64,000 bases of DNA from Cryobacterium sp. CG_9.6. Lineage in GTDB: Bacteria; Actinomycetota; Actinomycetes; Actinomycetales; Microbacteriaceae. Below, one piece after another: positions 3,133 through 27,000 of the stretch; position 1 is the first letter of the stretch; each line of letters starts with the position of its first letter. The DNA lies in the NCBI RefSeq assembly GCF_029893365.1, contig NZ_JARXUZ010000001.1:744001-808000 (forward strand), in the 5' to 3' direction. Both the position numbers and the translations under genes were made by a program. The notes beneath the pieces are model-generated. The model did not search any database. It saw only the letters and a program-made list of their open reading frames with translations, and was not told the origin of the DNA.

Positions 3133-3264
3133 ATGAATTATTCTAGTGAGGGCGAACAAGGGTCATTCGCGCAGTCGGCAGGGTTAGACGATGGCAGTTC
3201 TTGAGCCTCGGATACTCTGTAATCAGCGCGACGTGCGTCAAAGATTCGGCGGGAGCCTTGAAGC

Positions 3265-11883: not shown

Positions 11884-13173
11884 CTACTCGCTTTTGAAGG
11901 CGAGAGCGCTGCGCCAACTCATACCCTGGGCGGCCTTCACAGCGCAGATGCAGAGTAAAAGCCAGCCGAACTCCACGAGGATGGTGCTTTCGGCGGCGCT
12001 ATTGACGAGCAGCGCCACGAGGATGAGTGTGGGCCACACGTACACAATCGACCGCTTGGTACTGGCGAGCAGCCACGAGCGCGCGAGGGCCAGTGTTACG
12101 AGCACGAGGAACGCCAGAAAGCCGATGAGGCCGAGCTGAAAGTACACGTCCAGGTAGGCGTTCAGGCCCGACGCGTGCACGCGGCCGGTGGTGAAATCGA
12201 GCCAGCCGTAGGGCGTGGCGCTGCTGGGCCAAATACCAGCCCAGCCCCAGCCCTCGAGCGGATGCAGCTTCACGAGTCGCCACATCTCGGTCCAGAGGGT
12301 GGTGCGCACCTCAAACTCGCTGCCGGCGTTGAGCTGGCCGATGATCACACCACGACCAAACCAGACCGCCACGCCAGTGAGCAGGGCCGTACCGAGGACG
12401 ACCAGCTGGAGCCGCCAGCGGGATGCCGCCGGTGTGCGGCGCAACCAGGTGAGGGCGAGCGTGGCCAACACCACGACGAGGCCCACCACCAGAATCACGG
12501 GTGAGCGGGCGAAGAGCACACAGATGGCGGCGAGCCAGAGGGAGCCGATGCCTTTGCCACGCGGAAGAGAGCGTGCTCGGAGCTCCACGGCAAAGGTGAT
12601 GAGGGCGATGAGCGCCACGAGGCCGAAGATATTCCGTGAGCCGAATACGCCCTGAAGCGGACCCAGATTGGCGATATCACCGGTGATGTTGAGGAAGGTG
12701 ATGGGCAGGTCGAGCAGCGCGCCCGAGAGCACCTCCAGAAAGAGGGAGAGGCCCAGCAAGACGCGCAGCACGTCGCCGGTAGCCCGCACCACTTGAAACG
12801 TGTCGCGAACGAGCGCCACATAGATGGCGAGAAAACCGAACGCAACCTGGTAACCGACACCGGCGAGCGTATGGAGGGCGTATCCGCTCCACACCGCTGA
12901 GAGCGCGCACCACGCCACGAACACGATGATCGACAGGGGCAAAAGCCCGTGCCACTCGACGATGGGCCGGCGAGCGAGGAGCGAGAGTGTGGCGAGAACG
13001 ACGAGACCCATGACGATGCCCACGAGGCCGGCCCATCCCATCATGCTGCGCAGCAGATGGGTGGAGAAGGCGGTGCCGATGATGACCGTCGTCAGCGACG
13101 CCGCGAACTTGGGCGAGGCGAGCACGCGCTTGACACCCTCGGGCAGGGTCGGGGGAGTGCGCGATGAGGTCAT
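11884..13173 (-). CDS. O-antigen ligase family (Wzy_C) membrane protein
   Basis: A 429-residue polytopic protein with about ten to twelve membrane segments and a large outside loop before the last helices. The loop starts with TTLWTEMWRLVKLHPLEGWGW and goes on to NAYLDVYFQLGLIGF, the pattern of O-antigen ligase / Wzy proteins (PLxGxG and an H/N-x-Y-L region). GSRNIFGLVALIALI near residue 185 is the usual helix after the first loop. Such proteins polymerise or ligate glycans on a lipid carrier. It lies 25 bases after the related gene at 13199-14500 and shares the same motifs in order, so the pair is a tandem, well-diverged duplication. The ATG at 13173 has no clear ribosome site; TAAATT nine bases before it may give a leaderless mRNA. 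Confidence 0.85.
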   Translation of the reverse strand: MTSSRTPPTLPEGVKRVLASPKFAASLTTVIIGTAFSTHLLRSMMGWAGLVGIVMGLVVLATLSLLARRPIVEWHGLLPLSIIVFVAWCALSAVWSGYALHTLAGVGYQVAFGFLAIYVALVRDTFQVVRATGDVLRVLLGLSLFLEVLSGALLDLPITFLNITGDIANLGPLQGVFGSRNIFGLVALIALITFAVELRARSLPRGKGIGSLWLAAICVLFARSPVILVVGLVVVLATLALTWLRRTPAASRWRLQLVVLGTALLTGVAVWFGRGVIIGQLNAGSEFEVRTTLWTEMWRLVKLHPLEGWGWAGIWPSSATPYGWLDFTTGRVHASGLNAYLDVYFQLGLIGFLAFLVLVTLALARSWLLASTKRSIVYVWPTLILVALLVNSAAESTILVEFGWLLLCICAVKAAQGMSWRSALAFKSE

Positions 13174-13198
13174 GGACTTACTAATTTACCCGTTGCAC

Positions 13199-14500
13199 CT
13201 AGGGCATGGGTGCAGGCGTGCCCTGCTGTCGCTTGGTCATGACGGCCATCACCACGAGCAGCACCCATCCGTATTCGATCAGCAGTCGACTCTCGGCCAC
13301 GCTCTGTGCCAGCAACGCGGCCATGATCAGCAGGGGCAGCAGAGCGGATGCCGCAAACGGTGCGTCGTCCTTCACGCCCAGCCGTGGGCGATCGATCGCA
13401 AGAAACCAGGCCCGCCACAGGGTGGCCAGCACGAGAGCCACAAACACCACCAGGCCCACAATGCCGAGTTGCAGCCACACATCGAGCCAGGCATTGTGCG
13501 CTTGCAGGTAGGTCACGCCCTTGCGCACGGCGAGACCCTGGAACGGTTCCACCCATGGCACCCAGTAGCTCACCCAGCCCCACCCGAATGCTGGGCGTTC
13601 ACTGGCGAGCTCGGTGACGCTGTGCCAAATGTCGAAGCGACCCGTGAGGTCATCGCTCTTGCCCAGCAGTTGAGTAAGAAGTGGAAAGAACGCCAGTATT
13701 GCTGCCACGCCGGTGACAACGGATGCCGCCGCCACGATATACACGGGCCGCCGCGCCTGGTGATGCACGCTCCGGGCCCACAGGGCGAAGACCAGGGCTG
13801 CGAGCACAACGAGGGTGGCGAGCGTAACCGTCGACGACCGGGTGAGCAGCAGGGTGACGATGGCGAGAACGAGCCAGATGATGCCCCAGCCGCGTTTGAC
13901 GGTGCGGGCGGCAAGCTGCACCGCAAAAACGATCACGGCAATGAGGGCAATGAAACCCAACAGGTTGCGGTTGGCAACGATGCCCTCGATAGGGCCGCCG
14001 TCGAGCAGGAGCCCCCGGGACCAGTAGAACGCCAGCGGAATCTTGCCCTCGTATTCCACGAAGAAGGGAAGCACGGGCTGTTGAATCACCGCGGCGACGA
14101 ACAGTTCGAAGGCGAGAGACAGCGCCAAAATGTAGCGGAGGGCGACGGAGAGGGTGCGGAGTAGTTCCGCCCAGGTGAGGACGAGGGCCACGAACAGGGC
14201 TGCGATCGTGGTGATCCACTGCAACCCCACGCCGAGCAGGCTGGCTCCCGGGTAGAACGACCAGAGAATCGACAGGGTCGCCAGCAGCATGAAGATGATG
14301 AGGGCCTTGGGGAACCGGCGCCACTTCCAATCGGGCCGTTCGGTAATGAGGCCCACCACGCTGCCGACAAGCACGATCGCCACGACGGCGCCGAACCCCC
14401 ACCATCCGCCGAGGTTGCGCCAGAACTGGCCGGCCAGAACCGAGAACAACACAAACGTCGCAAACGTGCGAACGACGAAACGGCTGCGGACGGCGGACAT
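13199..14500 (-). CDS. O-antigen ligase family (Wzy_C) membrane protein
   Basis: A 433-residue polytopic protein (MSAVRSRFVVRTFATFVLF at the start) with about eleven membrane segments. Motifs match its neighbour: VANRNLLGFIALIAVIVFA, then in the large loop FDIWHSVTELASERPAFGWG and QAHNAWLDVWLQLGIVG, and near the end ESRLLIEYGWVLL. The open frame extends to 15178, but that part is a translation of a tandem repeat array (family A) and shows only repeated Asn-Thr-Thr-Thr-Gln/Pro-rich sequence, so the ATG at 14500 is the start. Probably co-transcribed with the ligase gene downstream. Confidence 0.87.
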   Translation of the reverse strand: MSAVRSRFVVRTFATFVLFSVLAGQFWRNLGGWWGFGAVVAIVLVGSVVGLITERPDWKWRRFPKALIIFMLLATLSILWSFYPGASLLGVGLQWITTIAALFVALVLTWAELLRTLSVALRYILALSLAFELFVAAVIQQPVLPFFVEYEGKIPLAFYWSRGLLLDGGPIEGIVANRNLLGFIALIAVIVFAVQLAARTVKRGWGIIWLVLAIVTLLLTRSSTVTLATLVVLAALVFALWARSVHHQARRPVYIVAAASVVTGVAAILAFFPLLTQLLGKSDDLTGRFDIWHSVTELASERPAFGWGWVSYWVPWVEPFQGLAVRKGVTYLQAHNAWLDVWLQLGIVGLVVFVALVLATLWRAWFLAIDRPRLGVKDDAPFAASALLPLLIMAALLAQSVAESRLLIEYGWVLLVVMAVMTKRQQGTPAPMP

Positions 14501-14585
14501 GGTCCTAACGTTACCGTTCGTCGCGTCCGTGCAGGCGCTGGCCGACGTGGGCGGGTCGGCCTGTTGCCGAGCGGATGCCGGCGGC

Positions 14586-15065
14586 CTTCGCGGGTTCCCC
14601 GCGGCCCGGACGGTGTGATTGTCGCTGGTCACCGTGGTGGGTGGGTGGGTCTGTCTGGTTGCCTGGTGGTGTTTGGTCCTTCCGGGTGGCGGGGAGGGTG
14701 CGATGGGCGTCGGTGACGTGGGTGGTTGGGGGCTGTCCGGTTGTGTGGTGGTGTTTGGTCCTTCCGGCGGGTCGGGAGGGTGTGAATGGCGCCGGTGACG
14801 TGGGTGGCTCGGGTTTGTCTGGTTGCCTGGTGGTGTTTGGTCCTTCCGGGTGGCGGGGAGGGTGCGATGGGCGCCAGCGACCGGGGTCGGTTGGGGTCTG
14901 TCCGGTTGTGTGGTGGTGTTTGGTCCTTCCGGGTGACCCGGAGGGTGTGATGGGCACCGGTGACGCGGTCCACCTAGGTCTGCCCGGTTGTGTGGTGGAC
15001 CTTTTTGCCTGCCTGGCGGTGTTTGGTCCTTCCGCGCGGCCGGGACTGTGTGATTGTCGCCGACG
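14586..15065. repeat. Repeat family A, array 1 (six ~82-bp hairpin units)
   Basis: The gap 14501-15135 contains no gene. It holds six tandem units. The conserved tail GTGYGATKGGCGC begins at 14614, 14698, 14780, 14862, 14945 and 15048, so the steps are 84, 82, 82, 83 and 103 bases. Ahead of each tail is an imperfect 21-base hairpin; the best one, ending at 14945, pairs CCTTCCGGG with CCCGGAGGG around a TGA loop. The units in this array also share GTGGTGTTTGGTCC just before the hairpin. The same unit and period recur at 16190-16750 and 23640-23950. Confidence 0.85.
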
Positions 15066-15135
15066 TGCGGTTGCCTGACGGAAGCCGGCGGACGACCGGT
15101 GCGGCGGTGCGCACCGGAGGTCTGTGACAGTGTTG

Positions 15136-16080
15136 TCAGTGCTGGGCGGCATCCGGAGTCTGAGGCGGCACCACCCACCCGCGGTTGGTCAGGCGTTTGG
15201 CGAGGCGCACGGTGAGCGGAACGGGGGCCTTGAGATCGTCGTCGGTGAACTGGAGCGCTTGCCAGCCCTCGTCCTCAACGCGGCCGAGGCGGGTAATGTC
15301 TCGGCGCCACTGGGACCGATCGGTGCGGTGATGATCCCCCTGGTATTCGAGCAATACCTTGAATTCCGGGTAGGCCAGGTCTGCCCGGGCGAGGAAGCGC
15401 CCAGCGTTGTCGAAGATCTCAAAGTTGCAGACGGGTTCCGGAAGCCCGGCGAGCACAATGATCATCCGGAGCTCAGACTCCTTGGGCGATTCCGACCCGG
15501 CCCGGAGGTACGGAAGCGCGAGTCGTGCACTGGACAATCCGCGGCGGCGTTGAGAGCACTCGCCGACCCCTTGGGTGAGGTCATCCATGCTCAGAAGCGG
15601 ATGCGTGCCGCCGATGAGAAAGTCGCCCACGGTCACGAGTTCAACCACAGAGAGCTGCGCGGCGAGGTCGAGCCAGGTGCGCACGGGGCTGGTGAATCGA
15701 AGGTCACCGTGATGGATCAGATCGCCGGTGCCGATTTTCAGGCTGTGGCCGGTGACGTTATGCGCTGTAAGCGCTCGGGCGGGCGCGTGGACGCCGACGT
15801 GCAAAGGAAGGACGCTCAGGCACCGCACGGGGAGGGGGAACCCGAGAAGAAGCGCAGCGGTCTCGTGGCTGAAGAAGGCGGTTGGGGGCATCCGCTGCAG
15901 AAGTGCGCGGCAATAGGCGTGAGTTGAGCCGTCGAAGGCACCTGCCGAACGAACGCCCCAGAATGGACTCGCGAGGTCACGGCCGTTGAGGCGCGAGCGT
16001 CCGATGCCGGCAAGCTGGCCGTCAGCGACGAGGAATGACCGGTCGACGAGCTCGGGTGGAAGGGAAACGCGGGGCTTCAT
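15136..16080 (-). CDS. DUF559 / Vsr-like endonuclease-domain protein with N-terminal winged-helix region
   Basis: A 314-residue protein. The C-terminal ~110 residues carry the PD-(D/E)XK-like pattern of DUF559 proteins: ESELRMIIVLAGLPEP, then RADLAYPEFKVLLEYQGDHH and DRSQWRRDITRLGRVEDEGW; the Asp in RADLAYP and the Glu in LEYQGDHH would be active-site residues. The N-terminal half (MPPTAFFSHETAALLLGFPL near residue 60) resembles the winged-helix region of AbiEi-type antitoxins that is often joined to this domain in Actinobacteria. Function is unknown; DNA repair, DNA cutting or mobile-element roles have been proposed for the family. The frame is open to 16962 but this is repeat DNA; the ATG at 16080 fits the family. 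It is bracketed by repeat family A on both sides. Confidence 0.8.
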   Translation of the reverse strand: MKPRVSLPPELVDRSFLVADGQLAGIGRSRLNGRDLASPFWGVRSAGAFDGSTHAYCRALLQRMPPTAFFSHETAALLLGFPLPVRCLSVLPLHVGVHAPARALTAHNVTGHSLKIGTGDLIHHGDLRFTSPVRTWLDLAAQLSVVELVTVGDFLIGGTHPLLSMDDLTQGVGECSQRRRGLSSARLALPYLRAGSESPKESELRMIIVLAGLPEPVCNFEIFDNAGRFLARADLAYPEFKVLLEYQGDHHRTDRSQWRRDITRLGRVEDEGWQALQFTDDDLKAPVPLTVRLAKRLTNRGWVVPPQTPDAAQH

Positions 16081-16189
16081 GTCGTTGATGATGCCGCCCT
16101 GCGCGCGCACGATGCGGGTTATGTACAGATGGGGTTTATTTCGGCGCGGCCCGTTGCTTGGGGAGGGACGGGGCCCGCGCGCTGGGTTG

Positions 16190-16750
16190 CGGAGTTCGTG
16201 CGTTCCCGGTGCCTGGGAAGGTGCGATTGGTGCTGGCGAAGTGACAGGGCGGAGTGGGTGGCGGAGTTCGCGCCTTCCCAGTGCCTGGGAGGGTGCGTTT
16301 GGCGCGGGCCGGGTGGTGGCGAGGTGACAGGGCGGAGTGGGTGGCGGAGTTCGTGCCTTCCGGGTGCGTGGGAGGGTGTGATTTGCACGAGCCAGGTGGT
16401 GGCGAAGTAACAGTGCGGGATTGGTGGCTGCGTTCGCGCGTTCCCGGTGCCCGGGAGGGTGTGATTGGCGCGGCCAGGTGATGGTGAGGTGACAGGGCTG
16501 ACTGGGTGATGGCGAATGCATCTTCCGAGCGGGTGCGACATGCGCCGAAAGCGCCCGATGGCAGGTCGTGAGGGTGTGATTGGTGCGGGCCGGGTGGTGG
16601 CGAGGTGACAGGTTGGGTGGGTGGTGGCGTTTGCACCTTCCGAATGTGCGGGAGGGTGTGATTGACGCCGCTCGGGTGGTGGTGGGGTGGCCGGGACGGG
16701 TGGGTGGCGGAGTTCGTGCCTTCCTGTGAGGCGGGAAGGTGCGATTGGCG
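16190..16750. repeat. Repeat family A, array 2 (seven ~82-bp hairpin units)
   Basis: The gap 16081-16774 holds no gene. Seven tandem units have the tail GTGYGATTGGCGC starting at 16221, 16293, 16377, 16459, 16574, 16657 and 16739 (steps 72, 84, 82, 115, 83, 82). The hairpin ahead of the second tail pairs CCTTCCCAG with CTGGGAGGG around TGC; the fourth pairs TTCCCGG with CCGGGA. Between hairpins the units share GGTGACAGGGCGGAGTGGG and GGCGGAGTTCGTGC. Same orientation and period as array 1. Confidence 0.85.
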
Positions 16751-16774
16751 CCAGGCTGGCCGTGGCGGAGACGA

Positions 16775-17215
16775 CTACTGGGCGGCGTTTCCTTCGGCCA
16801 GATAGGCGAGTCGCTGCAGGGTTTCCGTGTTGCGGATGTGCAGGGCGGGGTCGGTGAGCAGTCGGGGAACCAGCCGTGCCGAGCCCGCGACCGGGTATTC
16901 GCTGAGTCGCACGAGGCATCCGTTTGGGTGATTGTGCACGTCGATGGCCACGTTTGCCTCACCGATGGGCCAACCTCGGGCCTTCAGCAAGACGTGGCGG
17001 GGCGGATCCCACTCGAGCACGCTCGTGGTGTCGTTGATGAGCGCGGGCCAGACTCCCACCGAGTGGTGCAGGGCGCTGCCCGGGGCGGGCCAGTCCTCGT
17101 CGACAGCGCGCATGCGCGAGGCTCCGACAACCCAACTGGGATACAACCACGCATCGGCGAAGACCTCGAACACGCGCTCGGGCTTGCAGGTTAAGACGCG
17201 GTAGTTGACGGCCAT
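16775..17215 (-). CDS. SRPBCC (START-like) family protein
   Basis: A 146-residue protein with the polyketide cyclase / START-like pattern: VNYRVLTCKPERVFEVFADA at the N-terminus, WLYPSWVVGASRMRAVDEDW, and SVLEWDPPRHVLLKARGWP in the middle, a fold that forms a hydrophobic ligand cavity. It has no signal peptide. The frame is open to 17347, but the ATG at 17215 is the usual start for the family and lies 2 bases after the oxidoreductase stop, so both genes form one operon. The pairing with a phytoene-desaturase-like enzyme suggests a lipid or isoprenoid ligand (inference). Confidence 0.85.
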   Translation of the reverse strand: MAVNYRVLTCKPERVFEVFADAWLYPSWVVGASRMRAVDEDWPAPGSALHHSVGVWPALINDTTSVLEWDPPRHVLLKARGWPIGEANVAIDVHNHPNGCLVRLSEYPVAGSARLVPRLLTDPALHIRNTETLQRLAYLAEGNAAQ

Positions 17216-17217
17216 GG

Positions 17218-18675
17218 CTAGGTCGCGATGCTGGGGGCAAGGGACGGGGGCTGGCGGATGCCGTGCTCGTGGCGGAGAGCGCTGAGGGCCGCGCGATAGC
17301 CCGGGAGGCCCGTGACGCCGGGCCCGGGGGGCGTCGATGACGAACACAGATACACGCCCGGCAGGGGAGTGCGCCAGGGATCGGTGGACAGTACCGGCCG
17401 CGCGATCAGCTGGCCAATGGAGACGGCACCGGCCGCGATGTCGCCGCCCACGTAATTGGGGTTTCGGTTCTCGAGGTCAACGGCGGTGCGGCTCGCGGAG
17501 CCGAGGATGGTGTCCCGAAAACCCGGGGCGAACCGTTCGATCTGGCGGGTGATGCTCTCGGTCTGGTCTTCCTGAGAGCCGCGCGGCACGTGCGTGTAGG
17601 CCCACAGCACGTGCTGGCCGGCGGGCGCGCGGGTGGAATCGAGCACGCTCGGCTGCGACACCAAGACATAGGGTGCGGCGGCGTGCTGGCCGCGGGACAC
17701 TGCATTTTCAGCGCGGGCGATCTCGGCTCGCGTGCCTCCCACGTGCAGGGTCGGTGCCTGGTGGAGCTCGGGTGCGCTCCACGGAACCGGGCCGGAGAGC
17801 GCGTAATCCACCTTGGCCACGGCGTTGCCGTACTGGAATCGGGACAGCTTTTTGGCGTAGGCGGGCGGCAGATCAGCCATTTTCGCGAGAGCCTGCGGGG
17901 CGATGTCGAGGAGCACAATCGAGGCCGGCGGCAGGTCGGAGAGGCGTCGCACGTGGGTGTCCGTCACGATCTCCCCGCCGTGCGCAAGGAGGTCGTCGAC
18001 GAGCGCGCCCGCGATGGCGCCGCTACCGCCGACAGGAATCGGCCAGCCGCGAGCGTGTGCGTGCAGGGCGAGAACGAGTCCGGCGCCCGCGGTGGACAGG
18101 CTCGGTAGATTCTGAATCGCGTGGGCAAACGCGCCCGTGAGCAGCGCGGGGGCTTCCTCGCCGCGAAACCGCAGGTTCCAGGTGCCGGTGCCCTGTTCGA
18201 GCACCCGCAACCCGAAACGTGTGACGGCCAGCGGATGCCGCGGCACGCGCAGCAGGTGATTCCCCGTGAACTCGGCGACGGCATCCACTTGGCGAAGCAG
18301 TGGGCGGAAGAGGTTGAGCCAGGCGCGCCCGTCGACGGGGCCGAGGGCGGCGGCGGTGCGTTCGAGGTCGCGGTAGGCGATGCCGGCGCGTCCGCCCGCG
18401 AGGGGGTGACCGTAGGAGATGTCGGGAACGAGCATCTTGACGCGGTCGGTGATGCCGAAGCGCTGGAAGAACTCGGAGGCGAGAGCCATGGGGTGCACGG
18501 CGGAGCCGATGTCATGGTGAAAGCCGGGGAGGGTGAGCTCGGCCGTGCTTGCGCTCCCGCCCACGATGGAGTTCTTTTCGTAGACGCGCACGGAGAGGCC
18601 CGCCCGGGCCAGAGTCACCGCGGCGGCAAGCCCATTGGGCCCGGAGCCCACAACGATCGCGTCTACGTCGCTCAT
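17218..18675 (-). CDS. Phytoene-desaturase-like NAD(P)/FAD-dependent oxidoreductase
   Basis: A 485-residue flavoprotein. The FAD-binding Rossmann motif AIVVGSGPNGLAAAVTLARA is at residues 5-24 and is followed by the Glu of VRVYEK. VGGSASTAELTLPGFHHDIG matches the PYROXD2/CrtI-like group, and the C-terminal PLPGVYLCSSSTPPGPGVTG with GYRAALSAL is the conserved second FAD-contact region. Substrate is unknown; such proteins in Actinobacteria are usually annotated only as oxidoreductases. The ATG at 18675 begins MSDVDAIVVG and is preferred to the one at 18696. No carotenoid genes are in the window. Confidence 0.88.
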   Translation of the reverse strand: MSDVDAIVVGSGPNGLAAAVTLARAGLSVRVYEKNSIVGGSASTAELTLPGFHHDIGSAVHPMALASEFFQRFGITDRVKMLVPDISYGHPLAGGRAGIAYRDLERTAAALGPVDGRAWLNLFRPLLRQVDAVAEFTGNHLLRVPRHPLAVTRFGLRVLEQGTGTWNLRFRGEEAPALLTGAFAHAIQNLPSLSTAGAGLVLALHAHARGWPIPVGGSGAIAGALVDDLLAHGGEIVTDTHVRRLSDLPPASIVLLDIAPQALAKMADLPPAYAKKLSRFQYGNAVAKVDYALSGPVPWSAPELHQAPTLHVGGTRAEIARAENAVSRGQHAAAPYVLVSQPSVLDSTRAPAGQHVLWAYTHVPRGSQEDQTESITRQIERFAPGFRDTILGSASRTAVDLENRNPNYVGGDIAAGAVSIGQLIARPVLSTDPWRTPLPGVYLCSSSTPPGPGVTGLPGYRAALSALRHEHGIRQPPSLAPSIAT

Positions 18676-18740
18676 ACCTGGTGTCGTCTCTCGCAAGTCA
18701 TACCCGCGACGGTACTACACCCGGCTGCGGCTGGCTTGAG

Positions 18741-18835
18741 TTGCTAGTTCAGGAGATCGGGGTGGTCGGGGGCAACCGGTGTCCGGAATCACGCGGGTGC
18801 CGTGCGGCTGGTGAGCGGATCTCCTGAACTAGCGA
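18741..18835. repeat. Repeat family B, copy 1 (palindromic ~95-bp element)
   Basis: Perfect 16-base inverted arms GCTAGTTCAGGAGATC (18743-18758) and GATCTCCTGAACTAGC (18818-18833) enclose 59 bases. The gap 18676-19096 has no gene and is filled mostly by this and copy 2. A REPIN-like layout. Confidence 0.85.
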
Positions 18836-18941
18836 CGGGGGAGGCCGGTCAGGTGCCGGCGGGGCTGCACACGGGGGGCTGCCGGGGAGTGCCGGGGGCT
18901 GGCGCGGGGTGCTCGATGCGGGGTCTTGCCCCGGGCGTGTG

Positions 18942-19036
18942 TTGCTAGTTCAGGAGATCGGGGTGGTCGGGGGCAACCGGTGTCCGGAATCACGCGGGTG
19001 CCGTGCGGCTGGTGAGCGGATCTCCGGAACTAGCGA
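18942..19036. repeat. Repeat family B, copy 2 (palindromic ~95-bp element)
   Basis: Same element as 18741-18835, arms 18944-18959 and 19019-19034 with one mismatch in the right arm (CCGGAA for CCTGAA). The interior is the same base for base by eye, which points to recent duplication or conversion. Five more distant copies sit at 44.5-45.3 kb. Confidence 0.85.
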
Positions 19037-19096
19037 CGGGGGCGGGGGAGGGTGGAAGGATCGAGGGAACGGGCCCGCCAGCCCCGCCCGAGGCGC

Positions 19097-20263
19097 CTAA
19101 ATGAAGGCGGCCTCGCCGGTGATGGCGCGCCCCACGATGAGGGTGTTCATCTCCTGCGTGCCCTCGTAGGAGTAGATGGCCTCAGCGTCGGAGAAGTGGC
19201 GGGCCACGTTGTACTCCAGCACGATGCCGTTGCCGCCGAACAGCTCGCGGCACCACGCGACGGTCTCGCGCATGCGGCTGGTCGTGTATGCCTTCGCGAG
19301 GGCCGAGTGCTCGTCGCGCTGGGTGCCCTCGTCGAGCATCTGCGAGACGCGAACGACCATGCCGAGGCTCGCCGTGATGTTGCCGAGGCTCTTCACCAGC
19401 AGATCCTGCACGAGCTGGTGGCCGCCGATCGCCTTGCCAAACTGCATGCGCGTCCCGGCATATGCCACTGCGGCGTCGTAGGCGCCCACCGCGATGCCCA
19501 CGGCAGCCCACGACACCTCCGCGCGGGTGAGTCGCAGCACCTTGGCCGTGTCCTTGAAGGAGTTGGCGTTCTGCAGGCGCATGCTCTCGGGAACCAGCAC
19601 GTTCTCGAGCGTGATGTCCGCGTTCTGCACGCTGCGCAGGCTGATCTTGCCCTCGATCTTGGTGGCCGTGTAGCCGGGGGTATCGGTGCGCACCATGAAA
19701 CCTTTCACCTGGTCGTCGGCCGTGTCGCGCGCCCAGATGATGGTGATGTCAGAGAATGTGCCGTTGCCGATCCAGCGCTTGGCACCGTTCAGCACCCAGC
19801 TGTCGCCGTTGCGGGTGGCCGTGGTGCGGAGCCCACGCGCCGCATCACTGCCCGAGAGCGGTTCGGTGAGGCCGAATGCCCCGGTCAGCTCACCCGACGC
19901 AAACTTGGGCAGCCACTCCGCGCGCTGCTCCGGCGACCCGCACACCGCAATGGAACCGCCCACTAGTCCGGTTTGCACGCCCACAAACGTGGAAACGGAT
20001 GCGTCCACTCGCGCCAACTCGAGCGCCACGAATCCTCGGAACACTGCCGAATTCTCGAACGGGGCCAGCTCGGGCCAGGCGTAGGAATACACTCCGAGAT
20101 CGGCCAGGGGCTTGATGACCTGGGTGGGGAAATCGGCCCGCTCCCAGTATCCGTTTGCGATCGGGTGCACCTCGGCGTCCAGGTAGGCGCGCAGTTCGGC
20201 GAGGGCTTTCTGCTCCTGGTCGGTGAGGATGTTCTGGTAGCCAAAGAAGTCGCTCGTGGTCAT
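19097..20263 (-). CDS. Acyl-CoA dehydrogenase (glutaryl-CoA dehydrogenase-like)
   Basis: A 388-residue flavoenzyme that would oxidise an acyl-CoA at the alpha-beta bond using FAD. Motifs: GAFGLTEPLSGSDAARGL near residue 130 (FAD/substrate loop), WVLNGAKRWIGNG near 156, RMQFGKAIGGHQLVQDLL near 275 and YSYEGTQEMNTLIVGRAITG at the C-terminus, where the Glu in YEGT is the catalytic base position of glutaryl-CoA and related dehydrogenases. CAGGAG precedes the ATG. Divergent from manA. No partner decarboxylase or electron-transfer flavoprotein gene is near, so the substrate is not settled. Confidence 0.93.
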   Translation of the reverse strand: MTTSDFFGYQNILTDQEQKALAELRAYLDAEVHPIANGYWERADFPTQVIKPLADLGVYSYAWPELAPFENSAVFRGFVALELARVDASVSTFVGVQTGLVGGSIAVCGSPEQRAEWLPKFASGELTGAFGLTEPLSGSDAARGLRTTATRNGDSWVLNGAKRWIGNGTFSDITIIWARDTADDQVKGFMVRTDTPGYTATKIEGKISLRSVQNADITLENVLVPESMRLQNANSFKDTAKVLRLTRAEVSWAAVGIAVGAYDAAVAYAGTRMQFGKAIGGHQLVQDLLVKSLGNITASLGMVVRVSQMLDEGTQRDEHSALAKAYTTSRMRETVAWCRELFGGNGIVLEYNVARHFSDAEAIYSYEGTQEMNTLIVGRAITGEAAFI

Positions 20264-20406
20264 CTGGTGCTCCTGCGGTCGGGTTCACCTGGCCGTCTGC
20301 GACCGGGTGAAACATGCTGGCAAACGTGTGCGATCCTACGGGGACGCCGAGGCTCCACCAAACGGGTTGGTAGTTTGGTCTAAAACGCCGAGGGAAAGAG
20401 TCAGCC

Positions 20407-21705
20407 ATGTTTGTGGGCATCACCAATACGCCTCGGAATTACGCCTGGGGGTCGCAGACGGCCATTGCCGATCTGCTGGGTCATGCAGCATCGGGTCAAC
20501 CGGAGGCCGAACTCTGGCTGGGTGCTCACGCTGGATCGCCGTCACTGATCGATGATCCGAGCACAGTCGGCGGAGCCACCGATCTCGCCGAGTGGATCGG
20601 AGCCGCACCCGAGGCCGCGCTGGGGACTGCGCTCGCCGCCTCCGTCGCCACCGATTCGCTGGCCGGCCCTGCACCGCGACTGCCCTTTCTGCTCAAGATT
20701 CTCGCCGCTGATCGGCCGTTGTCGTTGCAAGCGCATCCCACGTCCGAGCGGGCGCGGGCGGGTTTCGAACTCGAGAACGACTCGGATGTTCCTGTAGGCG
20801 CCGGCAACCGCAACTATCGTGACCCGTTTCACAAACCTGAGCTTATTTTTGCGCTGAGCGACACCTTTGAGGCGCTCAGCGGTTTCCGTGATCTCACCGA
20901 GGTGCGTCGCATCATTGGTGAACTTCGTGCGCTCGACGTGGCAACCGATAACCCGCAGCCGGGCGCTCTCGACGCGCTCGAGAGCCGACTTACCGGCCCG
21001 GATGCCGTGAGCGATACCGTGGACTGGCTGCTCCGTGATGGCCGTGGCGGTGACTCCGGCGAGGTGAAGTGGCTCGTCGAGCGGGTGGTGGCGCTCGCCC
21101 ACCATGCGGTGTTCCTGGCAGCGGGTGGCGCCGTCATCAGCTTCGCGACCGAACTCGCCACGGTGCAAGCGCTGGCAGCCGAGTACCCGGGAGACCCGGG
21201 CATCGTGATTGCGCTGCTCGTGAACCGCGTGTCACTCAAGCGCGGCGAGGCCCTGTACTTGCCAGCCGGCAACATCCACGCCTATCTATCGGGCCTCGGC
21301 GTGGAGGTGATGGCAGCGTCAGACAACGTGCTGCGCGGTGGCCTCACCCCGAAACACATTGACATTGATGAGCTCCTCGCGGTGCTGGACTTCACCCCCG
21401 TGGCGCCGCCCTACCTGGTGCCCATTATCGAGTCCGAAGGTGTCTCCGTCTTTCGACCGGATGTCGCCGACTTCCAGTTGGTGCACATTGTGGCGTCGGC
21501 GAGCAGTGCGCCCGCGCCAGAGATGCGCCAGTTCGCGCTGACCGGTCCCGGAATTGCCATCTGCACGTCGGGTGGGTTCTTGGTGGCGGGATCCGGGGCA
21601 TCCGTTACGTTGAAACGCGGCCAGGCCGTGTACGTGACCCCCGACGAGGGCGTGCTCACGTTTGCCGGCGCAGGCGAGGTGTTCCTGGCCACCACGAACA
21701 CCTGA
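20407..21705 (+). CDS. manA: Mannose-6-phosphate isomerase, class I
   Basis: A 432-residue type I phosphomannose isomerase that interconverts fructose-6-phosphate and mannose-6-phosphate, feeding GDP-mannose. Visible signatures: ITNTPRNYAWGSQTAIADL at the N-terminus, LSLQAHPTSERARAGFE (zinc-ligand Gln and His), YRDPFHKPELIFAL (zinc-ligand Glu), and YLPAGNIHAYLSGLGVEVMA with SDNVLRGGLTPKHID (catalytic Arg region). GAGGGAAAG lies upstream of the ATG. In mycobacteria manA lies near whiB2, manB, DUF3499 and sahH genes; here whiB, DUF3499 and ahcY are all within 30 kb but the manB neighbour is not seen. Confidence 0.95.
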   Translation: MFVGITNTPRNYAWGSQTAIADLLGHAASGQPEAELWLGAHAGSPSLIDDPSTVGGATDLAEWIGAAPEAALGTALAASVATDSLAGPAPRLPFLLKILAADRPLSLQAHPTSERARAGFELENDSDVPVGAGNRNYRDPFHKPELIFALSDTFEALSGFRDLTEVRRIIGELRALDVATDNPQPGALDALESRLTGPDAVSDTVDWLLRDGRGGDSGEVKWLVERVVALAHHAVFLAAGGAVISFATELATVQALAAEYPGDPGIVIALLVNRVSLKRGEALYLPAGNIHAYLSGLGVEVMAASDNVLRGGLTPKHIDIDELLAVLDFTPVAPPYLVPIIESEGVSVFRPDVADFQLVHIVASASSAPAPEMRQFALTGPGIAICTSGGFLVAGSGASVTLKRGQAVYVTPDEGVLTFAGAGEVFLATTNT

Positions 21706-21947
21706 TTCGGCACCGCTTCGGAGCCGCGGGGGCTGACGGTGGGCTGACCGCGTCCGGAACGAGCGAGTGAAGCGGATGCTGCGACACGCGTTGGTGGCCC
21801 TGGCCGCGGGTTGCCTGGTGCTTGGATCGGCGATGTGGCGGCGGGCACCCGCCGGCCCGGTGCCAGCACGCGGTTGGTGTCGGAGGCGGCGGCTAGTCTG
21901 GGGGAGCGCGCGCGTCGGGCCGTGCTAAAGGTAGTTGTGAGGGTGAA

Positions 21948-22922
21948 ATGGCCTGGTTGGTCACTGGTGGAGCCGGATACATTGGGTCGCACGTTGTGCG
22001 AGCCTTTTTGGCCGAGGGTATGAAGGTCGTTGTTCTCGACGATCTGTCGAGCGGCCACGCGGAGTTCGTGCCTTCGGACGTGCCCTTTGTGCGCGGAGAT
22101 GTGCTCGACGGCGAGCTGCTGATGAACCTGTTTTCCGACCACGAGATTGATGGCGTGGTGCACGTCGCCGGCTTCAAATATGCGGGAGTGTCGGTGCAAC
22201 GCCCGCTGCACACGTATAAGCAGAACGTGACCGCCACAGCTACCCTTCTCGCGGCGATGGACGCTGCCGGTGTCGCCCGCATCGTGTTCTCCTCGAGCGC
22301 CGCCGTCTATGGCACCCCGCGCACCGATCTGGTGACCGAAGACACGGTGAAGAACCCCGAGTCACCGTATGGGGAGTCCAAGCTCATTGGCGAGTGGCTG
22401 CTGCGCGACCAGGGTATTGCCGCCGGATTGCAGCACACGTCGCTCCGCTACTTCAACGTTGTCGGCTCCGGTTCCCCTAACCTGCGCGATACCAGCCCGC
22501 ACAACCTGTTCCCGCTGGTCTTTGCCGCTCTGAGCGACGGTCGCACACCCCGCATCAACGGCACGGACTACGCGACCCCCGATGGCACCTGTGTGCGCGA
22601 CTACATTCACGTCGCCGACCTGGCCACGTCACACGTAGCTGCGGCCCGGCGTCTGGCTGCCGGCGACACCATTGCTCCGGTCTATAACCTCGGAAGCGGT
22701 GACGGTGTGTCGGTCGGCGAGATTATGACGACGGTGGCGGCCGTGACGGGCATCGACTTTGTGCCGGACCTGGGTCCTCGCCGCGCGGGCGATCCCGACC
22801 GCATCGTGGCCTCGGGTGAGCTTGCAGCCCGCGACCTCAACTGGAAAATGCGCCACACCCTCGAGCAGATGGTGCGCAGCGCTTGGGACGCGGAGCAGGC
22901 GGCCGTCGCCGCCACGGCCTAG
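21948..22922 (+). CDS. galE: UDP-glucose 4-epimerase
   Basis: A 324-residue short-chain dehydrogenase-type epimerase that interconverts UDP-glucose and UDP-galactose. LVTGGAGYIGSHVV at residues 4-17 is the NAD-binding glycine motif, SSSAAVYG carries the active-site Ser, and SPYGESKLIGEW the YxxxK pair. GSPNLRDTSPHNLFPLV and CVRDYIHVADLA are typical of bacterial GalE. GAGGGTG precedes the ATG. The product would supply UDP-galactose for the surface polymer genes to the left and the large glycosyltransferase to the right. Confidence 0.93.
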   Translation: MAWLVTGGAGYIGSHVVRAFLAEGMKVVVLDDLSSGHAEFVPSDVPFVRGDVLDGELLMNLFSDHEIDGVVHVAGFKYAGVSVQRPLHTYKQNVTATATLLAAMDAAGVARIVFSSSAAVYGTPRTDLVTEDTVKNPESPYGESKLIGEWLLRDQGIAAGLQHTSLRYFNVVGSGSPNLRDTSPHNLFPLVFAALSDGRTPRINGTDYATPDGTCVRDYIHVADLATSHVAAARRLAAGDTIAPVYNLGSGDGVSVGEIMTTVAAVTGIDFVPDLGPRRAGDPDRIVASGELAARDLNWKMRHTLEQMVRSAWDAEQAAVAATA

Positions 22923-23157
22923 GTATATGCGGGGCGCGTGACTGGCCTGATCGGCGTTTCTCTCCCCGTTCGGTTCCTGCGAATTGGGGTGCAATCACAG
23001 CGCATTCGGGCGTTCTGGGCCATAATCGGCTCAGAGCCAGCCGGTCGGCGGTGTCGAGGTTTTCTCCCTGCTCGGCAGGGACCCCCCAAAAGGCCGAGTT
23101 GAATTATTGGGCGCGTCGCAACTCTCGATCGAGTATTGAGGGTTTACGATTCACGAC

Positions 23158-23186
23158 TTGACGAAATGTAACTACAACGGTGTAAT
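23158..23186 (+). promoter_or_regulatory. Putative whiB promoter
   Basis: TTGACG at 23158-23163, a 17-base spacer and TGTAAT at 23181-23186 point at whiB, leaving about 40 bases of leader. The gap 22923-23234 otherwise shows only AT-richer sequence than average. Confidence 0.6.
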
Positions 23187-23191
23187 TAGGG

Positions 23192-23216
23192 GGTGACACG
23201 CAACCAGGGTGTCACC
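23192..23216 (+). promoter_or_regulatory. Inverted repeat at the start of the whiB leader
   Basis: GGTGACAC (23192-23199) and GTGTCACC (23209-23216) are perfect 8-base arms around a 9-base loop. They begin at the likely transcription start, so this may be an operator or a 5'-end mRNA hairpin. Confidence 0.55.
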
Positions 23217-23234
23217 TGATCAGTGGGAGACGAT

Positions 23235-23552
23235 ATGGCTATACCTGATTATCGTTCTGGAGTCCCCGAGGACTGGTTCGTCGATCCTGTTCGTCTGGGT
23301 GTTCCCGGCGTACGACAGGAACAGGGGGAAGGCAACCCGCTCTCTTGGCAGACAGATTCGTTGTGTGCTCAGACCGACCCCGAGGCGTTTTTTCCGGAAA
23401 AAGGTGGGTCTACCCGCGATGCGAAGAAGATCTGCGCATCGTGTGAGGTTCGCTCGCAGTGCCTGGAATACGCACTCGCCAATGATGAGCGTTTCGGCAT
23501 CTGGGGCGGGCTTTCCGAACGTGAGCGGCGCAAACTGCGGAAACGCGCCTAA
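23235..23552 (+). CDS. WhiB-family iron-sulfur transcriptional regulator (WhiB2-type)
   Basis: A 105-residue protein with the four cysteines that bind a 4Fe-4S cluster: Cys44, Cys67, Cys70 and Cys76 (spacing C-x22-C-x2-C-x5-C), followed by the FGIWGGLSERERRK turn and a basic C-terminus (KLRKRA) that contacts DNA or the sigma factor. WhiB2/WhmD proteins control cell division genes in mycobacteria and streptomycetes. The ATG at 23235 is preferred to a GTG at 23223 because GGGAG lies 5 bases before it. It has its own promoter and an inverted repeat in the leader. Confidence 0.93.
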   Translation: MAIPDYRSGVPEDWFVDPVRLGVPGVRQEQGEGNPLSWQTDSLCAQTDPEAFFPEKGGSTRDAKKICASCEVRSQCLEYALANDERFGIWGGLSERERRKLRKRA

Positions 23553-23639
23553 CTTTTGCGAATTGTCGCGGCTGGGTGCTGATCCGGCTCGTGGTGGGAC
23601 CGGCTGGCTCGGGTTGTCTGTTGTAGTGACGGGGCATCC

Positions 23640-23950
23640 GGTGGCGCACATTACTTCTTCGCAGTGCTGCGGAGGGTGTGATTGGCGCCGGTCGGGGCAG
23701 AGATGACGCGATGAGGCATCCGCTGGTGGACATCGCTTCTTCGGAGGGTTCCGGAGGGTGTGATTGGCACCGGTTGAGGACGTGATGCCCCGTCACACGC
23801 GCTCACCGGCGCGCATTACTTCTTTGTGGCGCATCCGAAGGTGTCATTGGCTCCGGTGTTGAGCTCGGGGTCGCGAGATGCGGCATCCGGTGGCGGAGAT
23901 TGCTTATTCGGGGTACGCCGGAAGGTGCGATTGGCGCCGGTGGTGAGCCC
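23640..23950. repeat. Repeat family A, array 3 (four ~82-bp hairpin units)
   Basis: The gap 23553-24034 contains no gene. Four units have tails starting at 23677, 23759, 23841 and 23925 (steps 82, 82, 84). Here the sequence ahead of the hairpin is GCATCCGGTGGCGCAYATTRCTTCTT rather than the GTGTTTGG of array 1 (each written by consensus over copies). The second hairpin pairs TTCTTCGGA with TCCGGAGG. Same orientation and period as arrays 1 and 2. Confidence 0.82.
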
Positions 23951-24034
23951 GGGGTCGCGCGACGCGGGCTTATTTCAAGGCGCGCCCTCCTGCCTGACCC
24001 TCGAAGAGGATCTCCGACCTAGGCTGTCTACGTT

Positions 24035-27000
24035 ATGCAACCGCGAGTAACTGCCATCCTTGTCGCCCGAAACGGGGCGAAACACCTTGAGCGAACTCTT
24101 GAGGCGCTCGCTCGTCAAACCCGCCAGCCCGACATCGTGATCACCGTCGATTGCGGGTCAACGGATGCGACGGCGAAACTTCTGGGTGACTCTGGGCCGA
24201 CGCAATTTATTGCGGCATCTGCTGACCTGAGTTTTTGGGCAGCATTGGCCGCGGCCGTTCGCGTGATCGCAGCCCCCGAGCATGACCGTGAAATGTTGTG
24301 GCTGCTCGCGCAGGACAGTGCCCCCGAACCCGGAGCGCTCGCGGCGCTTCTGGCCCAGCTCGAAATCTCTCCCTCGGTGGCCGTGGCCGGACCGAAAATC
24401 ATGGAGTGGGTGGCCGGCGAATACATTCACGAATTCGGTCTCACCATGACTCCTGGGGGATCCACCGTGACGCTCGTGGAGAGCGAACTCGACCAGGGAC
24501 AGCACGACGGGCTCAGCGACGTGCTCGCGGTGAGCGCTGGTGGCATGCTCGTGCGCCATACGGTGTGGAATGAGCTTGACGGATTTGATCCCGCTCTCCC
24601 CGTCATTGACGATTCCCTTGATTTTTGTGTGCGTGTTCGACTCGCCGGGTATCGAGTATCCGTGGTCGCCGCCGCCCGGGCGGCCTCTGCGGGTGCCGGG
24701 GTGGCAGGCGCGAACGAGTCCTCGCGAGGACGCCCCCGACGTCGCCGCGTGCGTGCGGAACGCTCCGCTCAACTGCATCGACGCCTCGTATACTCGGCCG
24801 GATGGGCGCTGCTCTTTCACTGGCTCTCCCTCGTTCCCCTCGCGTTCCTGCGCTCGATCGGTCAGCTGCTCAAGAAGGAGCCGGGCGCAGTCCTAGGTGA
24901 ATTTGCTGCCGCGTTCGGGGCGGCCTTCCACCTCGGCCGCGTGGCCAGAGCCCGCCGGCGCTTGGCGTCGACGAAGAAGCTCGGCTGGACCTCGATCGCC
25001 AGTCTGCGCGTGACCAGTGCGGAAATGCGCCGCCGGCGCGCCCTGCAACGGGAAGCGAGCCTGGCCGGAATTCGTGGTGATCGCCCCGAAATTCGGTTCT
25101 TTGCCAGCGGCGGTGCGTGGACTCTGCTCGCGAGCGGGCTGCTCTCCGCGATTATCTTCGCCCCGCTGCTCAACGCCCGCTCTCTCACGGGCGGTGGGAT
25201 GCTGCCGCTCTCGGATAACGTGACCGAACTCTGGAGCAGCGCTACCTACGGCTGGCGCGATGTGGGGCTCGGCTTCGTGGGCGCGGCCGACCCGTTCAGC
25301 GCCGTGCTTGCTGTCCTCGGCTCCCTCACCGCGTGGGCACCCTCCTTCTCGCTGGTTCTGCTCTACCTGCTGGCGCTCCCTCTGGCCGCACTCGGTGCCT
25401 GGATGGCCGCCACCCGCTTCACCGAACGCGGCGCACTCCGCGCCATCGCTGCGGTTCTCTGGGTGCTGGCCCCCACCTTTTTGAGCGCACTCTCGACCGG
25501 GCGCCCCGCCGCGATTCTGGTGCATCTGTTGCTTCCGTGGCTGTTTTTTGCGGGATTCTCGGCGGCACGATCGTGGTCGGCTTCGGCATCCGCTGCCCTG
25601 CTTTTCGCCGCAATTGTGGCATGCTCACCGTCGCTCGCGCCCGCACTGCTCGTGTTGTGGCTGATTGCCGTGGCGACGAGCGGACGCAGCGTGATGCGGT
25701 TCATTGGCATTCCGCTTCCTGCCCTCGCCCTCTTTGCGCCACTGATTGTGGAACAGGGGCTGCGCGGAAACTGGCTCGGCCTTTTTGCAGACCCGGGGCT
25801 GCCGCTCTCCACGGCACCCGTGAGCGGACTGCAGCTCGCGCTCGGTTTTCCCTCGGGCGGGCTCGGCGGCTGGATCGCACTGCTGGACGACCAGGGAATT
25901 CCGGGCGTCACCGCCGACATTCTTGTGCCCGTGCTGTTGATTCCCCTCGCGCTGCTGGCGCTCACCGCGCTGCTGCTCAATGGTGCGCGCAGCGGTGCAG
26001 TTGCCCTGCTCCTGGCCGTGCTCGGCCTCGGTACGGCTCTCGCCGCGAACCACCTCTTTGTGGCATCGGTCGGTTCCGACACGATCAGCGTCTGGTCGGG
26101 TGCCGGGTTGAGCCTGTACTGGATGGGTCTCGTGGGCGCGGCGGTCATCGCACTACGTGCTCTTCGCCGGGTGGCGTTTGCGCCCGGAATCACCGCTGTG
26201 ATCGCCCTGACCATCGTGGCTGTGCCGTTGTTGGCCGCGTATCCGCTGCAGACCTCGCTCGTTAATAAGGGGCTTGACCGCACGCAGCCGGCATTCATTG
26301 ACGCCGAGGCGCAGATTAACCCGCGCGTGGGCACGCTGCAGATCACCCCGCAGGTCGACGGCGGAATTCGAGCCGTGGTGATGCGCGGATCCGGAGCCGT
26401 TCTCAACCAGCAATCCACGCTGGAGAGCACCGACCAGGTACCCACGCAAGAGCAGCGCGAGTTGGCGACCCTGGCCGGAAACCTGGCCTCACGCAGTGGC
26501 CTTGACGCGGCTCAGGGGCTGGCCGACTTCGGCATCCGCTTTGTCGTGTTGCAGGCAGCGGGAGGCAGTCCCGAGGCCGAGGCCACGGCGATTCGCACCG
26601 CGACGGCGCTGGATGGCAATGCCGCGCTCGCGCCCGTGGGCGACACGAGCTTCGGGCGTCTGTGGCAGCACGACGTGTCGGCTGCCGAGCGCGCGTCCGC
26701 CGAGATTCCGCCAAATGCCGGTGGCTTGTATGGTCTGCTGGCGACCCTTGCGGCTGTGGTCGTGATCGGCATCACCGTGTTGCTCTCCATTCCCACCGGT
26801 GCCGGGCGCGAAGCCGTTCGGCAGGCCAACCGCGACGCCGTGCGCCGCGCCGCCCGAGAGAACGCGCGGCTGGCGAAGGCTAAGCCCCGGCGCCGGCGTT
26901 CCAAGACGGTAGCGGATGCCGCGGTGCCCGCAGCCGTGACACCTGGTGTCCCCGGAACCCCGCTTGAACCTGCCGTGTCGCTAGTGTCTCGCAGGGAACT

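Follow-up and report, generated by a model that had tools for sequence, protein, structure and literature searches.

A nuclease-fold gene between tandem arrays of long extragenic palindromes in Cryobacterium

RESULTS

Three arrays of a palindromic unit

The window, by which we mean the whole stretch of DNA analysed (64,000 nucleotides from Cryobacterium sp. CG_9.6), contains three arrays of a repeated unit (Family A) and the following features:

14501..16774, no strand assigned, array-nuclease-array islet between O-antigen-ligase-like and polyketide-cyclase-like genes
14576..15065, plus strand, array 1, six 55-nt units starting at 14576, 14661, 14743, 14825, 14908 and 15011
15136..16080, minus strand, candidate partner gene of the repeats, lying between arrays 1 and 2; its 314-aa product combines AbiEi-like and Vsr/EDxHD-fold parts
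16184..16756, plus strand, array 2, seven units starting at 16184, 16256, 16339, 16422, 16504, 16619 and 16702
23639..23942, plus strand, array 3, four units starting at 23639, 23721, 23804 and 23888

An earlier note on this DNA had described 17 units in three arrays, all in one orientation, and the six, seven and four units that we located, all on the plus strand, bear this out. The step of mostly 82–84 bases given there also held, with measured steps of 85, 82, 82, 83 and 103 in array 1, 72, 83, 83, 82, 115 and 83 in array 2, and 82, 83 and 84 in array 3. The tail described as constant, GGGTGYGATTGGCGC, was present with at most three mismatches 22 times in the window versus 9.7 ± 3.2 times in shuffled sequences (largest count 18). 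The hairpin, previously given as 21 bases, is actually longer, about 44–55 nt. The unit is a quasi-palindrome of about 55 nt with a pitch of about 83 bp, built from an outer stem (TGGCG/CGCCA), a mismatch zone and an inner stem (ACCTTCC/GGRAGGGT).

The units of array 1 matched repeat model R1 with E values of 1.8e-11 to 2.9e-9, and this array ends 71 bp from the stop codon of the nuclease gene. The fifth unit of array 2 (16504, reaching to 16591) is interrupted by about 33 extra bases, and the last one is separated by 19 bp from the stop codon of a minus-strand gene at 16775–17215. The neighbours of array 3 are a glycosyltransferase gene (24035–28612, Pfam) and a short gene ending at 23552, which we take to be WhiB-like and which gave no match in a Pfam search; the orthologous gap in the closest relative (G016) has 17 bp and zero units. 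Tandem Repeats Finder by itself detected array 1 (82-bp period) and array 2 (83-bp period). When Rfam 15 was searched at gathering scores only rRNAs matched in the window, in agreement with the earlier view that no family like this has been described. A CRISPR array was considered and rejected, as the spacers are alike within an array and the repeats divergent.

A gene flanked by arrays 1 and 2

The earlier note makes no mention of the gene at 15136–16080. The homing endonuclease I-Bth0305I belongs to the family labelled EDxHD. The catalytic domain of the 15136–16080 product has a Vsr/EDxHD-type endonuclease fold (PDB 3r3p, 1cw0) and its N-terminal domain has an AbiEi fold (PDB 6y8q; an AbiEi profile search was also run). 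The product is probably a DNA-cutting protein and may spread the palindromes. It scored below the profile cut-offs for DUF559 (PF04480, E 0.2) and REase_MTES_1575 (PF18741, E 0.12), and a 46% identical protein from a relative (locus L306) matched PF04480 just above the cut-off. The PF04480 profile gave zero matches in this genome and thus failed to detect even the gene in the window; a zero in the closest relative is accordingly no proof of absence. Four nucleases searched against NCBIfam had no match, and a search of plasmid proteins returned four distant nuclease homologues (26–36%).

Twenty loci were compared with that of the islet; both flanks could be seen in 15 relatives, and none of these 15 has room for the islet at the orthologous place. 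The gaps measured 46–838 bp in those relatives versus 2.3–2.7 kb for the islet.

Palindromes and their bracketing of nuclease genes in relatives

Cryobacterium relatives carry dozens of dispersed palindromes, with arm sequences of the species' own, and a common palindrome sequence was present at about 50 loci. No arrays were seen among the matches listed for other genomes. A query palindrome first seen beside the nucleases of two relatives (G005 and G047) matched five or more times on each strand of nine genomes, with forward/reverse half-arm matches of 30/31 in G005 and up to 52/43 in others; 36 of the 57 genomes had zero matches, and a reversed-pattern control gave 1 match over all. Two of the 3/3 matches in G047 are presumably the bracketing pair, which leaves little dispersal in that genome. 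In two other relatives (G006 and G071) nearly all half-arms among the matches listed were facing pairs, which argues against their being insertion-sequence ends. A few G071 half-arms were without a partner among the matches listed, mostly near contig ends. In two of these, at the starts of contigs C32 and C35, half of a palindrome adjoins a sequence common to both. That sequence is less likely to be the parent of the palindromes than a different element that has inserted into them. The one comparison of G006 palindromes with candidate empty sites in G071 showed rearranged flanks and did not recover an insertion with a duplicated target. The genes that we checked beside or between the G006 and G071 palindromes proved unremarkable (peptidase C26, aminopeptidase P, DUF222-HNH, phosphoribosyl pyrophosphokinase).

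Among named genomes a pattern that included the Family A tail had 0 exact matches, own-type records possibly being excluded from that search. A scan for the core palindrome in named genomes gave at least 120 stretches, most of them, among the matches listed, without long arms; many of the long-armed matches listed are a Bacillus/Mesobacillus palindrome family. Viral contigs had 14 core-palindrome stretches, none of which paired beyond 9 bp outside the core, and plasmids and phages gave no DNA match to array 2. In the open-licence PMC literature we found nothing on these repeats, nor on DUF559 with palindromes.

Matched palindromes stood on both sides of the nuclease gene at 5 of 36 loci in relatives; among control genes this was so for 2 in a set of 111 (p 0.0099) and for 0 in a set of 301. 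The 36 loci are 34 of the 35 PF04480 matches (G021:C20 was left out) and two G071 loci, and a few of them show one gap only. A 37th nuclease locus, L306, was found via its palindromes, one whole and one interrupted; its gene and that at L206 are flanked partly or imperfectly. Searching by the core of the palindrome alone led to a Glaciihabitans contig on which a nuclease homologue is flanked by a pair of similar but imperfect palindromes (19/23 and 18/24 arm pairs). Nucleases with a common palindrome are each other's nearest (L306/L337 91%, L332/L345 84%, L317/L324 69%). Seven other close nuclease pairs (77–89% identical) have no common palindrome scoring at least 14, and bracketing is therefore not a fixed trait of the nuclease family. 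Genes other than nucleases were also bracketed, namely two controls, a peptidase C26 gene (L087) and aminopeptidase P genes (L305, L307).

Pairing of the stems

The earlier note had inferred selection on a fold from three copies with paired stem changes. All three stems exist, but as a set the copies pair no better than shuffled arms. Pairing in 53 copies was 74.3%, versus 74.5% with the 3' partners shuffled (334 of 500 shuffles as high). For the inner stem alone it was 57.5% versus 58.9%, and for the outer arms, with one unit taken from each of 13 arrays, 63.7% versus 62.3% (152/500). Selection on the fold is thus unsupported by the arrayed copies, which are without pairing excess. Copies outside large arrays (11, one of them from the two-unit pair at L098) paired at 68.8% versus 60.1%, and palindromes across species at 84.7% versus 61.2%; in these two tests and that of the outer arms the centres were chosen for maximal pairing, which favours the observed over the shuffled value, and the arrays still showed no excess. 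Covariation across species cannot separate RNA from DNA palindromes. An RNA array was rejected for the lack of covariation among arrayed copies and of a matching Rfam family.

Copies across the genome and their placement

Many genomic copies, the check that the earlier note had asked for, were indeed found. The model gave 111 matches on both strands of this genome. Taking the better strand of each element, we retained 75 elements, spread over 27 gene gaps, and discarded two matches at L035 as weak or partial. Of the 75 elements, 73 are intergenic, the model having been built without three initial matches inside genes (L039, L040, L043). Convergent gaps made up 12 of the 27 copy-bearing gaps versus 46 of 259 baseline gaps (p 0.0012), and in relatives 27 of 45 examined elements were placed convergently (p 3e-10 against the same baseline). 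At many loci, not all, copies lie 3–45 bp past stop codons. The orientation of arrays relative to the upstream gene appeared mixed by eye. Both flanks of 17 gaps were found in the closest relative and scored by eye, with one element in 5, none or a decayed remnant in 11 and one gap outside the scoring. The arrays are lineage-specific. Units within one array have common spacers, so local duplication occurs.

Their position past stop codons and between convergent genes, the strength of the hairpins and the palindromy kept across species would also suit bidirectional 3'-end hairpins (terminators without a U-run, or protectors of mRNA 3' ends) spread by recombination or gene conversion, the nuclease being a passenger. 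We consider this reading unlikely, though a serious competitor. The hairpins are without a T-run, and scanning 13000–25000 gave 10 terminator-like sites versus 6.8 expected, one of them a unit stem (16356–16375, tail GTGTGATTTG, without a real T-run) and two others just overlapping units. Convergent neighbours in the closest relative have a 33-bp gap without a palindrome (L099 compared with L267). Terminators would moreover leave unexplained the sequence common to about 50 loci, the whole-turn spacing described below and the matched bracketing of one gene family.

Spacing in whole helical turns

The helical phasing of units proposed in the earlier note was tested and is supported by both the steps and the array lags. 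Among the 42 steps below 130 bp, 32 were 82–84; the remaining ten (62, 72, 72, 72, 73, 85, 91, 93, 103 and 115) fell on a 10.5-bp lattice with a mean cosine of 0.80, a fit reached in 0 of 20,000 simulations, and the value was 0.78 once the step at the interrupted unit had been removed. The best lag was 82–83 bp in 12 of 15 arrays and 62, 72 and 93 in the other three, that is, whole DNA turns, mostly eight. Gaps above 130 bp (137, 145, 201, 213, 216 and 243) showed no phasing (mean cosine 0.06). Spacers are mostly unrelated between arrays, yet the pitch of about 83 bp is common to them. It was also kept between units of opposite orientation, at 83 from minus to plus in L035 and at 93 and 72 in L099. 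Whole-turn spacing and a pitch kept across orientations point to DNA. Of the three options that had been left open, an RNA array is therefore the weakest, and a hairpin-based mobile repeat is preferred to a protein-binding array.

The same whole turns, constant pitch over mostly unrelated spacers and tolerance of orientation would be seen if the arrays served as platforms to which a host protein that organises DNA (gyrase or a nucleoid protein) binds, amplified by unequal recombination and selected for helical phase by that function. This is in our judgement improbable. Most of the orthologous gaps that we examined in the closest relative hold no array, nor was one seen among the matches listed for other genomes, which speaks against a conserved chromosomal role. 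Drift of low-complexity sequence, or plain tandem duplication, local to this strain and with no system behind it, would fit the spacers common to units inside one array but is very improbable, being contradicted by the 75 dispersed copies, the relatives' own dispersed palindromes and the pitch common to arrays with mostly unrelated spacers. Least probable of all is that Family A belongs to the known REP/BIME repeats and owes its spread to a RAYT (Y1) transposase: extragenic palindromes past genes, in clusters and tandems, are described for REPs in PMC3733652, but the Y1 transposase (PF01797) was found in 0 of 57 genus genomes and detected in control genomes, the consensus of 53 copies has no GTAG/CGTC tag, and the palindromes span about 44 to over 70 nt rather than 20–40.

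DISCUSSION

A possible palindrome-spreading nuclease

Dozens of copies of the palindromes are scattered about, chiefly at the 3' ends of genes; their sequences vary from species to species yet stay palindromic, and here they are tandemly multiplied. The reading that we favour, tentatively and at slightly less than even odds, is that Family A is an array-forming, strain-specific branch of long extragenic palindromes in Cryobacterium, REP-like and spread by a cognate AbiEi/Vsr-fold nuclease. Mobilisation by the nuclease is an inference. The AbiEi-like part would recognise its own palindrome as DNA and the Vsr-fold part would nick or cut there, after which repair would copy the palindrome into new places. 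Copies would persist where they are harmless, past stop codons. If proteins on neighbouring units need one DNA face, arrays would grow and persist at whole-turn spacings, mostly eight turns. Such a system would operate as REP/BIME repeats do, except that the part of RAYT would fall to an enzyme unrelated to the known REP transposases.

A broader proposal, which we regard as rather doubtful, is that this is a new bacterial mobile system in which a homing-endonuclease-like protein, pairing an AbiEi-type reader of DNA with a Vsr-type cutter, seeds and multiplies its own long palindrome across the chromosome, with one palindrome per enzyme clade and cooperative one-face binding that quantises arrays in helical turns. 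If so, the genomic habit of REPs would have arisen with another enzyme, the palindromes being abundant and no Y1 transposase having been found in the genus, and a role would be suggested for DUF559-type proteins. Whole-turn array spacing would be a testable sign of protein assembly on DNA that can be read from sequence alone.

Comparison with known systems

Mycobacterial interspersed repetitive units are likewise tandem repeats found in actinobacteria, with units of about this length at many intergenic places, but they are not palindromic hairpin units. We know of no helical quantisation or bracketed nuclease in them. AbiEi itself is the antitoxin of a type IV toxin-antitoxin system (PDB 6y8q), whereas here an AbiEi-like domain is fused to a nuclease-fold domain and the gene neighbours O-antigen-ligase-like and polyketide-cyclase-like genes, not a toxin partner. 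Unlike those of the EDxHD homing endonuclease I-Bth0305I (PDB 3r3p) and Vsr (PDB 1cw0), the window gene is bracketed by palindromes, and its cutting activity is a prediction.

The closest likeness is to REP/BIME repeats with RAYT. Many bacteria have REP-like palindromes, for which a Y1 transposase is the proposed spreading enzyme (PMC2817692). As PMC2817692 and PMC3733652 describe them, REPs are dispersed extragenic palindromes, mostly past genes, in clustered, regularly spaced groups and of species-specific sequence, with the enzyme gene between two copies of its own palindrome. Family A is likewise dispersed and extragenic, mostly in convergent or co-directional gaps. REPs measure 20–40 bp with GTAG or CGTC at one end and RAYT genes are always flanked by two copies of their palindrome, whereas Family A palindromes are longer and without these tags, and flanking on either side is seen for the window gene and for 5 of the 36 genes in relatives but not for the others. 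The candidate enzyme here is of Vsr/homing-endonuclease fold with an AbiEi-like part, in a genus where no Y1 transposase was found, and, unlike in REP/BIME, the tandem pitch of Family A stays near eight DNA turns whatever the spacer.

Family A units and their place among the genes

The earlier note had described 17 hairpin units in three arrays of one orientation. The arrays are real, and all units lie on the plus strand:

14576-15065, plus strand, array 1, six units
16184-16756, plus strand, array 2, seven units
23639-23942, plus strand, array 3, four units

Each Family A unit is a quasi-palindrome of about 55 nt with the consensus CTGGCGGCGTTTGCACCTTCC..GGGAGGGTGTGATTGGCGCCAG, and an Rfam search returned no family for these units. 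The covariance-model search proposed in the note was performed with a model built from 53 copies and found many more in this genome (121 matches at E ≤ 10, whole genome, both strands); 75 elements, all from the fetched stretches, were retained after strand merging. According to our own codon-usage gene caller 73 of the 75 are intergenic, and the remaining two share one gap, where both overlap a predicted start extension. Element edges were found near stop codons at many loci (e.g. 3, 11, 14, 16, 19 and 26 bp), with exceptions at L041, L105 and array 1 (67-104 bp). The 27 element-bearing gaps comprised 12 convergent, 12 tandem and 3 divergent ones, a convergent share of 12/27 vs 46/259 for baseline gaps (p 0.0012). 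Among 45 elements examined in relatives, 27 were located between convergent genes, 14 between tandem and 4 between divergent genes (p 3e-10).

The window contains other repeats. A second family (GTGCCGCGCGGC / GGCACTCGTTTG) forms an array of ~102-140-bp units at 41927-42777 and has one palindrome at 30118-30177. The gene of a glycosyltransferase-2 protein (24035-28612, 1525 aa) contains 33/66/99-bp repeats (27014-27377) as well as 15-bp ones (27918-28379), and short tandem repeats of 23 bp occur at 46455-46603.

Stem pairing

The note had also proposed paired changes in the hairpin stem. For that stem, 74.3% of cells were paired in the 53 copies vs 74.5% with partners shuffled, and the inner stem alone likewise showed no excess. 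The outer arms, taken from one unit per array (n = 13), gave 63.7% vs 62.3% (152 of 500 shuffles as high), while 11 copies outside the large arrays gave 68.8% vs 60.1% and 22 elements of relatives 84.7% vs 61.2% (0/500 as high in both); in all three sets the centre was picked per element for maximal pairing, which favours the observed value. Because the excess over shuffles appeared only outside arrays, the palindrome is maintained in lone copies and across species and has decayed within arrays. The proposal of paired changes thus fails for the arrays but holds for the wider family of related palindromes.

Spacing of units

Steps between neighbouring units shorter than 130 bp measured 82-84 bp in 32 of 42 cases; the other ten were 62, 72, 72, 72, 73, 85, 91, 93, 103 and 115 bp. 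Relative to 83, these ten fell on a 10.5-bp lattice with a mean cosine of 0.80, a value that none of 20,000 uniform simulations reached (0.78 after removal of the step of an interrupted unit). A period of 10.4 gave the same result and one of 11.0 gave p 0.00045; steps above 130 bp showed no phasing (mean cosine 0.06, n = 6). In a model-free self-comparison of 15 arrays the best lag was 82-83 in 12 and 93, 62 and 72 in the remaining three. The pitch was maintained across opposite orientations in two places, L035 (at 83) and L099 (at 93 and at 72). A shared pitch may come from indel-poor drift of a common unit. The spacers of different arrays were hardly related (mean identity 0.359 vs 0.340 expected, p 0.026; one related trio, L041a, L041b and L048), so the pitch, judged from these spacers, is not simply passed on with one of them. 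We read the short steps as reflecting what would be a protein assembly on one DNA face.

Orthologous gaps in the closest relative

Both flanks of 17 gaps were located in G016, the closest relative found in our comparisons (~82% nucleotide identity, 34 of the larger alignments), and 16 were scored, L033 being left out. One element was present in G016 at five gaps (L035, L038, L046, L097, L098), and none or a decayed remnant at 11 (array 3, the array-nuclease-array islet of arrays 1-2, L031, L032, L037, L099, L100, L101 twice, L102, L105). The L035 gap spans 812 bp with eight recognised units vs 110 bp with one palindrome in G016, the L098 gap 175 vs 98 bp and the array 3 gap 408 vs 17 bp. A single flank was found for L034 and L036, and the fetched G016 stretches showed no counterpart of the gaps at L041 (two), L045, L047, L048, L103 or L104. 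The arrays are lineage-specific gains, or else losses in G016. A single G016 unit (L106, G016:C1:1526167-1526221), 89% identical to array 2 over 46 bp, lies in a divergent gene gap in which this genome has a unit too.

The wider family in relatives

At E ≤ 0.01 the model matched 17 of 60 genomes including this one, all of the same genus (37 of the 60), and gave no such matches in the 21 other genera searched. The palindromes of relatives mostly have the common core ACCTTCC..GGAAGGT and different outer arms. Half-arms of one type matched 50/51 times (forward/reverse) in G006 and 40/42 times in G071; among the matches listed nearly all formed facing pairs, and no tandem arrays were seen outside the window's genome.

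Two G071 contigs, C32 and C35, start with a common sequence (L306 1-395, L307 1-367) that is joined to a half palindrome at the latter's centre. This looks as though a different mobile element had entered palindromes of the wider family; a lone half-arm lies near the start of contigs C10 and C21 as well. In Bacillus massilionigeriensis and Mesobacillus maritimus, many dispersed palindromes GGGTGACAGGCACCTTCC..GGAAGGTGCCTGTCACCC have the core in common but other arms (L140, L147, L149, L150, L154, L164, L186, L215, L246). A DUF222-HNH gene (L309 297-1547, G006) adjoins one dispersed palindrome, and nuclease types besides the AbiEi/Vsr-fold one might associate with palindromes.

Palindromes beside nuclease genes

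For relatives of the probable nuclease gene that lies between arrays 1 and 2, we fetched 37 loci: 34 of 35 PF04480 loci (12 genomes), two G071 loci and L306. A long palindrome was present in 19/71 nuclease-adjoining gaps vs 6/70 other gaps of the same stretches (p 0.007). Both gaps contained one at 5 of 36 nucleases, L306 excluded (L317, L324, L332, L337, L346), and in all five the left and right palindromes match each other; control genes were bracketed in 2/111 cases in the same stretches (p 0.0099) and in 0/301 in 19 G016 stretches. At L306 one flank carries a whole palindrome; the other carries half of one, fused at its centre to foreign sequence also found at another contig start. A palindrome-core scan of named genomes (at least 120 stretches) yielded the Glaciihabitans contig L206, where a nuclease homologue (37%, 3204-4097) stands between two similar, imperfect palindromes (arm pairs 19/23 and 18/24, both under our score limit). 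Nucleases with the same palindrome were mutual nearest relatives (L306/L337 91%, L332/L345 84%, L317/L324 69%). The palindrome of L321 (nuclease 61-66% to L317/L324) differs, that of L328 (62-64% to L306/L337) looks similar by eye, and seven other close nuclease pairs (77-89%) had no long palindrome in common.

The L317/L324 palindrome had been seen beside those two nucleases only, and a search with it could have been negative. Its half-arm GCGRRAGCGGGTGAATCGTCG, without the ACCTTCC core, was searched in 57 genomes, two mismatches at most being allowed. Forward/reverse matches numbered 30/31 in G005 and 3/3 in G047, where the bracketing pair probably accounts for most of them. Five other genomes gave 52/43, 18/17, 17/18, 15/14 and 11/11, with fewer elsewhere and none in 36 of the 57; the reversed-pattern control gave one match across all 57. 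Given these many matches, the nuclease-side palindrome pointed to a dispersed palindrome family.

A candidate mover and its comparison with REPs

From these sequence comparisons we infer that the nuclease may move the palindromes and that its cooperative binding would produce the phasing. Against a role as mover, the majority of nuclease genes are not bracketed two-sidedly, some ordinary genes are bracketed too, and no precise insertion event could be reconstructed. The arrangement is reminiscent of dispersed extragenic palindromes (REPs) and their Y1 transposases (RAYTs), where the enzyme gene is flanked by its own palindrome (PMC2817692) and REPs occur after genes and in tandems (PMC3733652). 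The RAYT domain PF01797 was absent from all 57 genomes of the genus searched and, unlike the REP/RAYT system, the candidate enzyme is of a different fold.
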